Below, in pieces: positions 2,355 through 53,405 of a DNA stretch of 64,000 nucleotides. The notes under the pieces are model-generated. The model was given only the letters and a program-made list of their open reading frames with translations. It was not told where the DNA came from and searched no databases. Source of the DNA: Stenotrophomonas sp. 57 (GTDB lineage: Bacteria; Pseudomonadota; Gammaproteobacteria; Xanthomonadales; Xanthomonadaceae); NCBI RefSeq assembly GCF_030291075.1, contig NZ_CP127407.1, positions 2,168,001-2,232,000 on the forward strand, written 5' to 3'. The number at the start of each line of letters is the position of its first letter. Positions within the stretch are counted from its first letter, which is position 1. Made by a program: the position numbers and the translations under genes.

Positions 2355-3559
<1,205 letters not shown>

Positions 3560-5920
3560 GTGGCGAAGCAGGTCCCCGAACGCTCCAAGTCCGACGACAG
3601 CAAGGCGTCACGTCGCACGGCCGCAGCGGCGGCGACCGATAATCCACGCCGCCAGCGCCTCTGGCGCGACCTGGGCCTGATCGCCATCGCGCCGGCGCTG
3701 CTCTACCTGGCGGCCAGTCTTTTCACCTATTCAGCAACCGACCCGGGCTGGTCGCACACCGGCAGCGTCGTCGCGCCGGTGCATAACCTGGGAGGCCGCG
3801 CCGGCGCCTGGATCGCCGACGTGCTGCTGCAGTTGTTCGGTTACATCGCCTTCCTGCTGCCCGTCGTGCTGGGCGCGCTGGCCTGGATCGCCATGTTCGG
3901 CCTCAAGCGTGAGAGCAAGGGCGAGAACGACCTGGACCCGGCGCTGCGCCTGGTCGGCCTGGTCGGCTTCCTGATCGCCGGTACCGGCTTCCTGCACGTG
4001 CGCCTGTTCAGTGGCGATGTTTCCAGTGCCGGCGGCATCCTCGGCAAGCTGGTGGGCAACTCGCTGACGGTGGGCTTCGGCGCGCTGGGCGCGAACCTGT
4101 TCGTGCTGGTGCTGCTGCTGGCCTCGATCACCCTGGCCACCGGGCTGTCCTGGTTTACGGTGATGGAGAAGATCGGCCGTGGCGTGATGTCGCTGGCGCC
4201 GTTGCTGGAGCGCAAGAAGGAAGAAGTCACCGAGTGGAAGCAGACCCGGGTGATGCGCGAGGAGCGCCAGGAAGTGCGCAAGGCCGACGCCGAGGTGCGC
4301 GCCAAGCGCGAGCCGGTGAAGATCGAGCCGCGCCCGGAACCGGTGATCGAGAAGAGCGATCGGGCCAAGCGCGACACCCAGATTCCGATGTTCCGCGGCG
4401 TCAACGGCGATGGCTCGGACCTGCCGCCGCTGGCGCTGCTGGATGATCCCAAGCCGCAGCCCAAGGGCTACGACGAAGAGACGCTGGAGACCCTGTCGCG
4501 GCAGATCGAGTTCAAGCTGAAGGACTTCCGCATCGATGCGCAGGTGGTCGGCGCCAATCCCGGCCCGGTCATCACCCGCTTCGAGATCGAGCCGGCACCG
4601 GGCATCAAGGTCAGCCAGATCAGTTCGCTGGACAAGGACATCGCGCGCGGCTTGTCGGTGAAGTCGGTGCGCGTGGTCGATGTCATTCCGGGCAAGTCAG
4701 TGATCGGCCTGGAAATTCCCAACGTCACCCGCGAGATGATCTTCCTGTCCGAGCTGCTGCGCTCGAAGGAATATGACAAGTCGGCCAGCGTGTTGACCCT
4801 GGCGCTGGGCAAGGACATCGCGGGTCGCCCGACGGTGGCCGACCTGGCGCGCATGCCGCATCTGCTGGTGGCCGGCACCACCGGCTCGGGCAAGTCGGTG
4901 GCGGTCAATGCGATGGTCCTGAGCCTGTTGTTCAAGGCCTCGCCGAAAGACCTGCGGATGCTCATGATCGACCCGAAGATGCTCGAACTGAGCGTCTACC
5001 AGGGTATCCCGCACCTGCTGGCGCCGGTGGTCACCGACATGAAGGAGGCCGCCAACGGCCTGCGCTGGTGCGTGGCCGAGATGGAGCGCCGCTACAAGCT
5101 GATGAGCGCGGTGGGCGTGCGCAACCTGGCCGGCTTCAACAAGAAGGTGAAGGAAGCCCAGGACGCCGGCCAGCCGCTGATGGACCCGCTGTTCAAGCCG
5201 AACCCCGAATTGGGCGAGGCGCCGCGCCCGCTGGAGACGCTGCCGTTCATCGTCATCTTCATCGACGAATTCGCCGACATGATGATGATCGTCGGCAAGA
5301 AGGTGGAAGAGCTGATCGCGCGCCTGGCACAGAAGGCGCGTGCGGCCGGCATCCACCTGATCCTGGCTACGCAGCGCCCATCGGTGGACGTGATCACCGG
5401 CCTGATCAAGGCCAACATCCCGACCCGCATCGCCTTCCAGGTCAGCTCCAAGATCGACTCGCGCACCATCCTCGACCAGTCCGGCGCGGAAACCCTGCTC
5501 GGCCACGGCGACATGCTGTACCTGCCGCCGGGCACCGCGCTGCCCGAACGCGTGCATGGCGCGTTCGTGTCCGATGATGAAGTGCATCGCGTGGTCGAGC
5601 ACCTCAAGGCGATGGGCCCGGCCGATTATGTCGACGGCGTGCTGGACGAAGTGCAGACGATGGGCGACGGCGTGGTCGTGGGCGCCACCGGCCTGCCGGA
5701 GAACACTTCGTCCGGCGACGAGTCCGACCCGTTGTATGACGAAGCACTGCGGGTGGTCACCGAGACGCGCCGTGCCTCGATTTCCGGCGTGCAGCGCCGG
5801 CTGAAGATCGGCTACAACCGTGCAGCGCGACTGATCGAGGCCATGGAAGCGGCCGGCGTGGTCAGCCCGCCCGAGCACAACGGCGACCGCACGGTGCTGG
5901 CACCGCCGCCGCCGAAGTAA
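3560..5920 (+). CDS. ftsK: DNA translocase FtsK
   Basis: 786 residues. This membrane-anchored septal DNA pump drives chromosome segregation and activates XerCD recombination at dif. The N-terminal ~190 residues hold hydrophobic membrane segments, followed by a charged linker that is short compared with E. coli. The motor carries Walker A GTTGSGKS (~439-446) and Walker [14 protein letters not shown] (~565). The C-terminal winged-helix gamma domain ([27 protein letters not shown]) is close to the E. coli KOPS-reading gamma domain. GTG start at 3560; the next in-frame possibilities would cut the conserved N-terminus. A probable dif site lies in this same window at 50712. Confidence 0.97.
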
Positions 5921-49271: not shown

Positions 49272-50711
49272 GCTGGCGCGGGCACCCGGTTTCGTGCGGG
49301 TTGCCTGTCCGATTGATTTCGGAGGACCAGTAATGACCACGTCCACCGGATCTCCCTCCGCTGCACCCTTCCGGCAACGCACGCTCTTTCGATGGATCGT
49401 CCTCCTTACCTTGCTGGCCTGGGTGTTTACTGCCGTCGTCCTTGCCATTGGCGGTCGGCCTGTTCCAGCCAGGCTCCGCGCTGTTGCGCCCCTGATCGAC
49501 GGTCCGTGGAAATTCCACGTTGGTGACGATTCGCGCTGGGCGGGCATCCCGGTCGATGACGCGTCCTGGGAAACACTCGACCTCAGTGCGCCGGCCAGCA
49601 GCATCGACGGAGACGTGGGGCTGCCCAACTATGTAAGCGGGTGGATGGCGCATGACCACTATGGTTACCAGGGATATGCCTGGTATCGACGCACACTTTC
49701 GATTCCAGAGGGAGACCGCGCATGGGACATCCTGGGGCCTACCGCCGTGGAAGATGGCTACGAACTCTTCTGGAACGGTGATCGCCTGGGAGGATCGGGC
49801 AGGCTAGGGGACGCGCCTCGCGTGGTGGGCACGCGGCCGATGATCTTTCCGCTTCCAGCAGATGCAGCAGGAACGCAGGAAGTTATCGCCGTAAGAGTGT
49901 TCATGCAGCCCGGCAGCGCTGTTGGCCCTGCAAGCGGCGGTATCCATATGGCGCCGACACTCGCCCCACGACCGGAGAGCCAGGCGCTGTTCCACATTCA
50001 ATGGTGGCGTACCGTTGCAGGCTATATCGTGGAGGTGGTCGAGCCATTGGCCATGATCATGGTAATCGTGCTGGCATCGGCGCTTCGCCAGCGCAGCAGC
50101 CATCAATCGTTCATTGCCGTCGTCTGTGCATTGCGCTCCTGCTTTCCGCCGTCAAGCGGCTCGACAACGCGATCGTCTCCTGGACGGATCTGCTCAGTCT
50201 TCCGACGTATACATGGTTGAACAACGCGCTTTGGATGCCGCTCAGCCTTGTTGCCTGGGCACTGGCGTGGAATCGCTGGGTACTTCCTCCCTCGCGGACG
50301 ATCGATGCCAGCGCGCTGACACTTGCAGCGCTGGGGATTGTGGTAGGTGCCATAGGGGCCGCCTCACTCACGCAGGTCTTCCGACTGGGTACGCTCGGGT
50401 TGCTGCTGGCCATCGCCGTGCGAATCTTCCGTCAAGGGCCTATGCGTGGCTTTGCGCTTATCGTGATGCTGGTGATCGCCATATCGCAGTACACGAGCGA
50501 ACTCGGCGCGCTGGGTGTTCCGACGATCTGGTTCCCGTTTGGCATCGGGGTCACGCTGACGCAGTACGTGTACGGGATTGCCATTCCGTTGCTGGCGGTG
50601 TTGATCGGGCAGAGTCTGACAGTTGGAGAGTTGCCGCCACAGGCAGGGGTTTCAGGTACAGGGGGGGTTATGGGTCTGTGGGGAGGTTGTCGGTCTGCGC
50701 TCGATGGGCGG

Positions 50712-50739
50712 CGTGAACATAATATACATTATGCGCAAT
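50712..50739 (-). other. dif: dif site (XerC/XerD recombination site)
   Basis: Read on the minus strand, 23 of 28 positions equal E. coli dif, including 22 consecutive bases. The XerC arm ends GCGCATAA, the central hexamer is TGTATA, and the XerD arm starts TTATGTT. It is followed by two phage-like small ORFs. FtsK, which activates recombination at dif, is encoded at 3560 in the same window, and GGGNAGGG octamers switch strand here. Confidence 0.85.
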
Positions 50740-50851
50740 GCTGTATCGGGCTGGCGCAGCCCTTGTCGGCTCCGCATGGCACTGGCTGGGCCTCTGGCTT
50801 GGCTCCTGCCTGCGCCCTCAGACCCCGGCCAAGGATGAGATCGCGGCATGA
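50738..50851 (+). CDS. Small membrane-type ORF next to dif (37 residues)
   Basis: MLYRAGAALVGSAWHWLGLW is followed by LGSCLRPQTPAKDEIAA. The start codon overlaps the last two bases of dif and the stop overlaps the next gene by ATGA, suggesting coupling. A single hydrophobic helix with a charged tail is what filamentous-phage minor proteins look like. No Shine-Dalgarno is clear, so this is tentative. Confidence 0.35.
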   Translation: MLYRAGAALVGSAWHWLGLWLGSCLRPQTPAKDEIAA

Positions 50852-51228
50852 TTGAGTTCGACCCGCACCACCGTATCGAGTTGACCGGCCCTTGGGCCGG
50901 TTTTTCTTTCCTCGGTGATCGGCTGATCACCCCCGAAGGCCGCGAACTGCTCCCGGAAGATCTGGCCTGGCTGTCGCTCACCGCGTGCCAAGCGCAGGAA
51001 TGGCGCCGGATGATGGAAGCTGCCCGTTCGGCGCCGTCGATCAACAGTCCCAGAAATGTGCACAATCGAGACGCCGGCATTCGCCATCATCCTGCCACTG
51101 TCGTCAATCTGCGGGATGTTGTCAGCCGACGCAAAGAGCGTTCGGCGATAGCGATGGCTGGACCCGACGCCGAGCCGCCCGCAGCCGTCCTGCCGGTGCC
51201 GGGGCCGAAACGCCGCCAGCGCGTGTGA
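50848..51228 (+). CDS. Phage-like small protein (DUF3653-like candidate)
   Basis: 126 residues. The opening IEFDPHHRIELTGPWAGFSFLGDRLITPEGRELLPEDLAWLSLTACQAQEWRRM resembles the TGPWAGW...L.(T/S)PEG...P.DL pattern of small proteins carried by filamentous phages of Xanthomonas and Stenotrophomonas. The C-terminal half is low-complexity, Pro/Ala/Arg-rich. Bases 50884-50905, inside the gene, form a perfect terminator-like stem plus TTTTT. Filamentous phages of this group integrate at dif, so a remnant is plausible. Confidence 0.5.
   Translation: MIEFDPHHRIELTGPWAGFSFLGDRLITPEGRELLPEDLAWLSLTACQAQEWRRMMEAARSAPSINSPRNVHNRDAGIRHHPATVVNLRDVVSRRKERSAIAMAGPDAEPPAAVLPVPGPKRRQRV
50884..50908 (+). terminator. 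Intrinsic terminator-like hairpin inside a coding sequence
   Basis: ACCGGCCC/GGGCCGGT is followed by TTTTCTTT. It encodes the LTGPWAGFSF stretch of the gene at 50848. It would stop transcripts entering from the dif side after about 170 bases. Confidence 0.55.
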
Positions 51229-51237
51229 GGCGCTTCC

Positions 51238-51256
51238 GTAGGGGCGCTGCCCCTAC
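51238..51256. repeat. GTAG-flanked palindrome (SMAG-like)
   Basis: GTAGGGGC-GCT-GCCCCTAC, perfect. It lies between the phage-like gene and the convergent low-GC gene and may end both transcripts. Confidence 0.55.
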
Positions 51257-51262
51257 ACCCCG

Positions 51263-52045
51263 TCACTTACCACTCCCCCTGCTATCAGTTTCGACGCCAG
51301 GCGCTTGAGGGGCGGCGCTTGAATCTTGTCCTTCCGGAATGCCAATTAGCTCAAAGTCAAGAAATTTCTGCTTAGGGAATCGCTTGCGCAGCACCACATG
51401 AAACTGAGCCTTAGCCTTTTGCAGTGAAGCAAGCGTGTCGTCCACATCTTTGATGATGAACTCTGTAGTTCTTACAAGCTCATCAACCACACGCGGTCCG
51501 ACTTCAGTACGCAATTCCTGCAGAGTAATTCCTCCCCGCTGATGAAGACCTTTAGCTTCAGCTACCGGTTGGTACTGGTCCAGATGAACCTTGGACCGGC
51601 GGTCGATCGCCTTCATAAGGTTATGGAAGCGTCGCTCCTCTAACCACAGGTCAGCGACTGCCTGCTGGCCCTCTTTGTCAGAAAGAAAGCTGAGGCCGTC
51701 GAAGTTGAAGCGCTCCCGATCCACATCCTCGGGAAGGCTGGGCGCCAGCATTACTCCGGCGGCCCGCCCCATTCCGCGAATCGGATTCACGTAATTCGCC
51801 TTGTAGCCCCCAACCGTATTCGCCATTCGGAATAGGCACTGAAGGGCGGCGCCTGCTTGCGCAATTTCCTGCTGCCGCCTCTCCCTATCCTTCTCCTTTT
51901 GCTGCAGCCGGAATGCAAACATGGCGCCAAAGAAGGAGGCCGCGATCGTGGCTATCGCCGAAAGGTAATCCTTCTCCAAAATGCTTGAAATCACATGACC
52001 AGCGGCCTCCTGTGTCTGGCGTAGAAGATCGTACACGTTCTCCAT
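51263..52045 (-). CDS. Membrane-anchored hypothetical protein, low GC
   Basis: 260 residues, start at 52045 with GGAG about eight bases upstream. One membrane helix (YLSAIATIAASFFGAMFAFRLQ, ~28-48) is followed at once by a charged coiled coil (QKEKDRERRQQEIAQ) and a helical cytosolic domain. Codon use and base composition (about 50% GC in the lines I counted) differ clearly from the neighbours, a sign of recent transfer. No family recognised; the layout resembles single-helix effector proteins of defence or stress systems, but no catalytic motif is seen. Confidence 0.7.
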   Translation of the reverse strand: MENVYDLLRQTQEAAGHVISSILEKDYLSAIATIAASFFGAMFAFRLQQKEKDRERRQQEIAQAGAALQCLFRMANTVGGYKANYVNPIRGMGRAAGVMLAPSLPEDVDRERFNFDGLSFLSDKEGQQAVADLWLEERRFHNLMKAIDRRSKVHLDQYQPVAEAKGLHQRGGITLQELRTEVGPRVVDELVRTTEFIIKDVDDTLASLQKAKAQFHVVLRKRFPKQKFLDFELIGIPEGQDSSAAPQAPGVETDSRGSGK

Positions 52046-52094
52046 TTCATTGCTCCATTCTTTGGGAGACTGCCTCCGGCTTGCGCGAGGCCGA

Positions 52095-53192
52095 TCAGAA
52101 GTAGAAGCCGATATTGAGGTTCAGCCGCGAATGCCAGCTGGAAAGGCCTCCTTCGTCGATGCCGATACCATCACCACCGGCAAACCACATGTTGCGGCCA
52201 GCGATCCAGTCGACATAGGTGAGCATGATGCCTTTCTGCAGGCTGCAACCGGTCACGTTCTGCCACGAATCACGAAGGCCAGCGCGGTGCCCGACCGGGC
52301 GGGTCATGCTGAGGTTGTTATAGCAGGTGATGTCATCCAGCCAGCCCTTCTGGCCGAACGAATAGGCGATGTTGGCGCTTGGCACATCCGCCTGCGCTGC
52401 AACCTGGAAGGGGGATTGGAACGCCGACATTGCGATGCGATCTCCGGGCACGTCATACCGGTACCGCGCCCACTGCAACTGAGCGGTCCAACCATCGCGC
52501 TGCCACTGTGCGTGGAGTGCCGCGCCCTGATGACCGTAGTGACGCCGTGTCTGAGTGTTCTGCACCTTGCCAGCAAACGCTGATGCGCCTAGCAACAGTT
52601 GGCCGCCACCCCAGTCGCGCGCGCTCTCCACGCGTGCATGCAGTCGTTGCCGCTCGCGATACGGCAACGCCTCGGTCTGCGCGACATCAAAGGAGTAGCG
52701 ATCGTAGCGAGCCCCGGACCCGTATTCGTCTCCAGAGAACCAGCCAAGATGCCAGGTTGTGCTGCCGCTGCGGTGAATCACCACAAGGCCCGGATCGTAA
52801 TCATCCTCGATGCCCAGGTAGTAGCCGGAGCCGAACCAGAAACTCTGCGAAACGGTGGGGAGCAGCCCGAACGGGACTTGCTGGATACCTGCCTTGAGCT
52901 GGGTAGCATCGGAGAACTGCCAGCCCGCGTAGGCGTGATGCACGGCGTCGAAGCCATCGTACCAGCGGTATTGGGCAGAGAAGGAAAACGGTCCGGTTCC
53001 AGCGTCAAGGTCTGCACGCATCAGTTCAAGCTGAAGGCGGCTGGTCGGCCCGTAGTCGAGCCAGCCGTAATTGAACCTTACCGCACCACCAAGCTTGAAG
53101 TAGGAATCGCCGTTCCGATCAGGTTCGGATGCCTCTGTGGGTAAGGAAACGCTGGCGAGCAAGGCAATGGCAATAGAGGAAATTACTCTCAC
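52095..53192 (-). CDS. Outer-membrane porin-like beta-barrel protein
   Basis: 365 residues if started at the GTG at 53192, which begins a clean signal peptide (RVISSIAIALLASVSLPTEA); an ATG at 53222 would add ten residues. Alternating aromatic strands (YFKLGGAVRFNYGWLDY, FSFSAQYRWYDGFDAVHHAYAGWQF, LKAGIQQVPFGLLP) and the C-terminal LNLNIGFYF ending in Phe mark an outer-membrane barrel, similar to the phosphate-selective OprO/P-like group. Substrate unknown. It sits 49 bases from the low-GC gene and is transcribed in the same direction. Confidence 0.78.
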   Translation of the reverse strand: MRVISSIAIALLASVSLPTEASEPDRNGDSYFKLGGAVRFNYGWLDYGPTSRLQLELMRADLDAGTGPFSFSAQYRWYDGFDAVHHAYAGWQFSDATQLKAGIQQVPFGLLPTVSQSFWFGSGYYLGIEDDYDPGLVVIHRSGSTTWHLGWFSGDEYGSGARYDRYSFDVAQTEALPYRERQRLHARVESARDWGGGQLLLGASAFAGKVQNTQTRRHYGHQGAALHAQWQRDGWTAQLQWARYRYDVPGDRIAMSAFQSPFQVAAQADVPSANIAYSFGQKGWLDDITCYNNLSMTRPVGHRAGLRDSWQNVTGCSLQKGIMLTYVDWIAGRNMWFAGGDGIGIDEGGLSSWHSRLNLNIGFYF

Positions 53193-53405
53193 GATCGGGC
53201 TATCTGCCTCCGAGTTCCACATGCGAAAGCGCGCCAGTGTAACGTTGCATGTTGTGAAGAACGCGTCGGCCGACGGCCGACGCAGTGCAGTCCCGTGTCA
53301 TCAGGGGTGGAAAGTGTTCCCAGCGAACGAGGCGATCTTTCCGTCAGATGTCGGCAACGATCATGACGTCAGCGATTGACGTGGACCACGACGCGTTAGG
53401 TTGGC

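Follow-up and report, generated by a model that had tools for sequence, protein, structure and literature searches.

The 28-base site ATTGCGCATAATGTATATTATGTTCACG, read on the minus strand of the stretch of Stenotrophomonas sp. 57 DNA analysed here, is very probably the dif of this chromosome, and its XerC half appears to be of phage origin. The stretch, called the window below, is 64,000 nucleotides long (chromosomal positions 2,168,001-2,232,000) and belongs to a chromosome assembled as one complete contig of 4,440,463 bases (4.44 Mb), in which the site occupies positions 2,218,712-2,218,739. The explanation that we hold with high confidence is that the site is a working dif, half of which was contributed by an inovirus that integrated there and whose prophage then decayed. 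The features on which this reading is based are collected in Table 1.

Table 1. Features in and around the dif site (window positions)
Feature	Position	Strand	Basis
ftsK, 4TM, alpha, motor and gamma domains	3560..5920	+	Pfam
Membrane-protein-like host gene (judged by eye), XerD side	49294..50613	+	Nucleotide similarity to G036 and G079
dif site (XerC arm, central hexamer, XerD arm as read on the minus strand)	50712..50739	-	Comparison with E. coli dif and within the genus
XerD arm TTATGTTCACG, putative host-side half of the hybrid site	50712..50722	-	Phage homology ends at its inner edge
Central hexamer TGTATA	50723..50728	-	Comparison of sites within the genus
XerC arm ATTGCGCATAA, apparently phage-derived half of dif	50729..50739	-	Phage homology and comparison of 40 sites
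Inovirus remnant, about 540 bp, with the 3' end of the attP-bearing phage gene (PSH1 ORF5, DUF3693)	50723..51262	+	Phage nucleotide homology
Intact 126-aa DUF3653 ORF, proposed Xer activator of the lost prophage	50848..51228	+	Pfam and weak NCBIfam VC1465 match
260-aa ORF abutting the phage remnant, membrane segment by eye	51263..52045	-	Open reading frame
Porin-like ORF	52095..53222	-	By the similarity region 52072-53108

The site was first noticed for its resemblance to the dif of E. coli, and we repeated this comparison with the 28-mer of E. coli dif, a match to which is present in 5383 of 5426 E. coli genomes. The identity announced in the initial annotation, 23 of 28 positions on the minus strand, was obtained again, and its description of the site as intact is correct, since the central TGTATA and both inner arms are unbroken and the mismatches to E. 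coli are confined to outer arm bases, the same bases that also differ among relatives in the genus. Searching the window with the full 28-mer at up to three mismatches returned 0 matches, as expected for a site that carries five. The second-best score in the window, 20, belongs by hand count to the same site read on the opposite strand, because dif is partly palindromic, and the best independent rival in the 64 kb reaches 16/28. Elsewhere on the chromosome, 20 sampled regions of 20 kb gave a best score of 18, and 40 first-order Markov sequences of 64 kb also gave 18 at best, with a mean of 16.75. The site has the layout of the gammaproteobacterial XerCD-type dif, 28 bp made of a XerC arm, a 6-bp centre and a XerD arm.

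A site of this kind could be the remnant of a phage attachment event and nothing else, the working dif lying elsewhere on the chromosome, and the phage-like character of its XerC half and of the adjoining 540 bp, described below, fits such a reading. Against it, a search of the complete genome with the 22-base core, allowing up to three mismatches, found one place, the site itself, with 0 mismatches (reversed-pattern control, 0), so that the second copy which the initial annotation suggested looking for was not seen. Besides dif, the whole genome contains no other site with a XerC arm and central region at three mismatches or fewer of 17. The position of the site, a skew peak and a flip in the orientation of KOPS motifs also coincide, and 82 of 91 genomes of the genus, our own included, have one such site each. 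Finally, the attP sites of five free phages have one good arm only, which marks a two-armed site as a regenerated dif. We consider it hardly credible that the site is an attachment remnant alone.

The proposal that the replication terminus lies here is well supported. dif is located 49.97% of the way round the circle from dnaA, with the skew peak and the KOPS flip at the same place. A DnaA-like ORF starts at contig base 1, and the first ORFs of the contig are presumably DnaA, DnaN, RecF and GyrB. Cumulative G-C reaches its maximum in the window at 50754, 15 bases off dif. The predicted change of skew sign was seen in the 20 sampled 20-kb regions, which cover about 9% of the genome: skew was positive in 10 of the 11 regions before dif and negative in 7 of the 9 after it (17/20 of the expected sign), the three regions of wrong sign being the one at the origin (the initial 20 kb) and those at 2.886 Mb and 3.552 Mb. 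The KOPS motif, GGGNAGGG, occurs in the same regions 38 times forward and 10 times reverse before dif and 5 and 37 times after it; within the window the counts are 14 and 1 before, 0 and 2 after. KOPS are convergent as well at two E. coli dif loci used as controls (left 3/0 in both, right 0/5 and 0/4). The idea of reading the orientation of dif relative to replication was dropped, because the symmetry of convergent KOPS and skew around dif leaves the orientation of its arms unreadable.

The genome encodes the proteins that would act on such a site. XerC (TIGR02224) and XerD (TIGR02225) both score above their model cut-offs, and the single FtsK_gamma domain of the genome, also above cut-off, lies in the ftsK gene of the window, the score of the full-length NCBIfam FtsK model being below its cut-off (803 vs 1566 bits). 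This ftsK is located 45 kb from dif, near the terminus and inside the same window. By analogy with the known system, XerC and XerD would bind the two arms of dif, and FtsK, steered by KOPS, would join both dif copies of a chromosome dimer and trigger strand exchange; from the established XerCD-FtsK system we infer that dimers would be resolved at this site. The likeness to E. coli covers the 28-bp site, the inner arms, the central hexamer, the terminus position, the KOPS flip and the presence of xerC, xerD and an FtsK gamma domain. The site differs from that of E. coli in the variability, within this genus, of the four outermost XerD-arm bases and in a XerC half that seems to derive from a phage.

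The variability of the XerD arm was seen when dif was compared across the genus. A 24-base pattern with up to three mismatches located dif in the 82 genomes mentioned above (reversed control, 0) and gave no match in the other 9 of 91, 6 of which belong to the 86 genomes with a completeness of 90% or more and a contamination of 5% or less. Forty oriented sites from the 82, those of 39 relatives and our own, mostly from single-contig genomes, were compared; this sample is not random, as it also takes genomes with the flanks of the window or its TGCGC arm, and a 41st stretch (L084), without dif, was dropped. The central hexamer TGTATA is identical in 40/40 sites and the XerD arm keeps the same inner seven bases in 34/40, with one base different in 6/40, a sameness of the core that is partly by construction because the sites were located by a core pattern. 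Among the 82 listed sites, the hexamer deviates in three (G037, G078 and G085). Among the 40 sites, 30 different sequences occur at the four outermost XerD-arm bases and three at those of the XerC arm (33, 5 and 2 sites), the window's XerC-arm variant ATTGCGCATAA being shared by 5 of the 40, its own site included.

The origin of the XerC half was examined by comparison with phages. When 50200-51200 was searched by blast in a set of 50,697 phage records, 16 matched (10 Stenotrophomonas, 6 Xanthomonas, duplicate accessions counted), and the match to the best record, PSH1, starts on the plus strand at 50723, where the central region of dif begins. Homology to phage thus begins at the recombination point within dif, as in a Xer-integrated inovirus (IMEX). 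In a finer comparison over the 540 bp, the remnant is 89% identical to PSH1 and 85% to SMA9. The attP shared by these two phages, TATACATTATGCGAAAT, is made of TATACA followed by the XerC arm TTATGCGAAAT, with non-dif sequence where the XerD arm would stand, that is, a TLCphi-type design with a good XerC arm and centre and a degenerate XerD arm; for the window's own phage, whose attP is gone, this design is presumed. Since the phage homology starts at the dif centre and these attP have no XerD arm, the present dif would combine a host XerD arm with a phage XerC arm, the latter apparently left by a decayed inovirus prophage. The initial annotation had spoken of foreign-looking genes around the site, which was right in kind and vague: the foreign piece touching dif is this inovirus remnant.

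Little else of the phage was found. Zot had no match in the genome, RstA had none near dif, and no far att junction was detected in the window on the same strand at up to five mismatches of 17; a match with five mismatches at 3483, on the opposite strand, is probably due to chance. With neither a far junction in the window, nor Zot in the genome, nor RstA near dif, the segment is a remnant rather than a prophage. An Rfam search over 50200-52100 had no match. The following series of events would account for these observations. A filamentous phage, with an attP that was good in its XerC arm and centre and degenerate in its XerD arm, would have integrated at dif, leaving on one side a complete dif, with host XerD arm and phage XerC arm, and at the far end a non-dif junction, of the type that is seen in relatives and not in the window. 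The prophage would then have decayed to about 540 bp, which retain the phage-derived part of dif, the end of the gene that held attP and, intact, the DUF3653 gene.

The DUF3653 protein (PF12375, 35.1 bits against a gathering cut-off of 22.4) is encoded by the only DUF3653 gene of the genome. With the NCBIfam model of the VC1465 Xer recombination activation factor (NF040522) it scores 39.3 bits, below the cut-off of 70, and five phage DUF3653 homologues score 37.6-42.5 bits, which is a distant resemblance; we take VC1465 to be the same protein as XafT. DUF3653 was found beside att in the 19 elements examined, and in the free phages PSH1 and SMA9, of C-type, and SMA7, SHP2 and SMA6, of D-type (types defined below), the gene lies within about 130 bp of attP; compared with these phages, the window retains about 540 bp only. 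From the likeness to the VC1465 model and the parallels with TLCphi, we propose that DUF3653 phage proteins switch on Xer recombination without FtsK, and the distant family resemblance together with the place beside att make it likely that the protein of the window is such a phage-encoded Xer activator. A structure model computed from the single sequence was poor (mean pLDDT 49.8, pTM 0.31). dN/dS is 0.22 to PSH1, 0.22-0.32 between the window copy and two phage and two prophage copies, and 0.22-0.40 across all ten pairs, values that mix phage-era and host-era selection, so that retention of the gene by the host is not readable from them.

The host might nevertheless have retained the stranded gene for its own use, as a Xer activator aiding dimer resolution at the adjacent dif. 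Its ORF is intact, adjoins the only dif found and weakly matches a Xer activation factor, and the genome has no second DUF3653 and no Zot; recent loss of the remaining prophage gives the same picture, many of the compared regions lack DUF3653, and the selection signal is undatable. We judge retention by the host to be unlikely.

The genes flanking the site were also inspected. On the XerD side, the host gene is open here in two overlapping frames (49294-50220 and 50001-50855) and in a single frame in G036 and G079, according to tblastn coordinates, suggesting that it is likely decayed; nucleotide similarity to these two genomes stops near 50613, and Pfam had no match for the gene. On the other side, the 260-aa ORF is present in 2 of the 91 genus genomes, our own and G063 (65% identical). 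It had no match in the 50,697 phage records or in NCBIfam, its best PHROGs match had an E of 0.024, and PADLOC, run on two proteins including this one, had no match. The relative in G063 lies 57 kb from the dif of that genome, with no match to a PSH1-type protein in the 20 kb around it. The nucleotide match to G063 (68%) begins at window position 51197, within the phage remnant, and beside it a 32-base piece of G063 (94%) matches 50785-50816; these matches hint at a shared history. With the ORF absent from the phage records and its G063 relative distant from dif, the idea that it is phage cargo was set aside tentatively. As for the porin-like region, copies of 52072-53108 that are 96-97% identical lie far from dif in some relatives (for example at 4.31 Mb in G041); in eight others, or as further copies (78-95%), the region is found on the XerC side, at 7-44 kb from dif.

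To see where related phages sit, PSH1 proteins were mapped onto the 40 dif regions, two of which have no XerC flank, and the resulting table was counted by hand. Phage sequence immediately adjoins dif on its XerC side in 18 of the 38 regions with such a flank, 11 of them with a DUF3653 match reading away from dif and 7 with the tail of the attP gene only. On the XerD side, 9 of the 40 regions have an inverted DUF3653 match immediately beside dif, and four regions have phage sequence on both sides of dif. These four are in G042, G049, G045 and G061 (L068, L072, L073 and L074); all have the inverted XerD-side DUF3653, and G045 and G061 have a XerC-side DUF3653 match as well. The far end of the element was recognised by a C-arm half-site, 4.0-8.6 kb to the right, in 6 of the 18 XerC-side cases, and by a D-arm half-site, 5.9-7.6 kb to the left, in 8 of the 9 on the XerD side. 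No far junction was found in 12 of the 18 XerC-side cases, the window included, so that most of these are remnants or had their junction missed. The free phages fall into the same two types, PSH1 and SMA9 having a C-type attP and SMA7, SHP2 and SMA6 a D-type attP, in which AACATAATATACA is followed by sequence unlike the XerC arm (partly like it in SMA6). Judged by these sequences, the related inoviruses form two mirror-image classes, XerC-half and XerD-half mimics, that would insert on opposite sides of dif.

The same counts bear on whether the phage-like segment of the window is instead a host locus that phages captured, in which case dif would be purely of the host and DUF3653 a host gene. 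A solitary, intact DUF3653 ORF with no other whole phage gene around it, and with the low dN/dS to phage and prophage copies reported above, could be so explained, although pairwise dN/dS is unable to separate phage-era from host-era selection. However, the gene is patchy and occurs on both sides of dif in the two orientations, in the 14 two-ended prophages it falls within the element, bounded by dif and the far junction, and the far junctions in relatives oppose the capture of a host flank by phages. We find a captured host locus very unlikely and continue to regard the segment as left by an inovirus.

On integration, each class would rebuild dif with its own arm, the D-class replacing the XerD arm. 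Comparison of the present dif with the far junction shows different 11-base XerD arms in 8/8 D-class prophages (a single base apart in G059) and different XerC arms in 3/6 C-class prophages. We looked for a D-class scar on the XerD side of the window (50613-50711) and did not call one, local alignments to 39 relatives having given two borderline scores only (G045 and G008, p 0.01-0.02 each of 100 shuffles, uncorrected).

A protein survey of 14 prophages and the five phages found DUF3653 in 19/19, RstA-type proteins in 16 and Zot-type proteins in 13. On quick trees, which are small, with several forks open and long-branch warnings in all three sets, the class label needs two changes for DUF3653 (shuffled mean 6.3-6.4; 0/500 shuffles as low), two for RstA (mean 5.1; 2-3/500) and five for Zot (mean 4.2-4.3; 500/500), indicating that DUF3653 and RstA cluster by class and that Zot does not. 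For 18 of the 19 DUF3653 proteins the nearest relative belongs to the same class; the exception, G059, is at most 38% identical to any other. Some relationships cross the classes: the Zot proteins of G064 (C) and G061 (D) share 93% identity, and the RstA proteins of SMA9 (C) and G045 (D) share 95%. By these comparisons, parts are traded between inoviruses of the C and D classes.

Comparison with described phages places the two classes in context. XacF1 and Cf1c, Xanthomonas inoviruses that integrate at dif, have an attP core, TATACATTATGCGAA, whose 15 bases equal those of the C-class, within a possible regulator ORF that integration splits (PMC4076744, PMC5666396). The accessible text describes this one kind of attP, in contrast to the mirror class found here, with its XerD half-site. 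The attP of TLCphi consists of the XerC arm and centre of dif1 with a degenerate XerD arm, in a satellite phage without structural genes (PMC4246890), and the TLCphi-type IMEX of Vibrio cholerae is reported to encode its own XerD-activating factor, XafT (PMC9765430). The resemblance to TLCphi lies in the design of the C-class attP and in the distant match of the DUF3653 proteins to the XafT model (VC1465, NCBIfam). Unlike TLCphi, the Stenotrophomonas elements carry Zot-type and RstA-type genes, and the D-class attP is reversed, with a good XerD arm and a degenerate XerC arm. Three classes of vibriophage attP have been reviewed, none of them described, in the accessible parts of these sources, as having the XerD half alone (PMC4246890, PMC5357621). 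Our literature search on Xer/dif integration, filamentous phages and Stenotrophomonas, outside which most subscription papers fell, yielded no recognised account of a XerD-half class or of two-sided dif insertion in the genus; a 2014 paper on the 'integrative properties' of phiSMA6 and phiSMA7 may describe part of it.

A broader model can be put forward tentatively, as a possibility that we do not yet expect to hold. A XerC-half class, TLCphi-like, and a XerD-half class, which would be a fourth kind of Xer-exploiting attP beyond the three known for vibriophages, would trade parts; an arm-matched DUF3653 protein would activate the recombinase of its side; and the attP-DUF3653 block would be a swappable dif-side cassette whose traffic might explain the near-random sequence at the outer end of one dif arm in the genus.

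As a dif, the site is ordinary, and finding it fixes the terminus of this chromosome. The added interest comes from its apparently phage-made half, from the Xer-activator-like gene beside it and from the mirror class to which it led, which together with its arm-linked DUF3653 gene is an interesting lead. An essential site can, it appears, be half-replaced by a phage and yet stay a two-armed dif. If the idea of arm-matched DUF3653 proteins is true, the two classes would constitute a natural test of the choice that a small phage protein makes between XerC-first and XerD-first recombination without FtsK.
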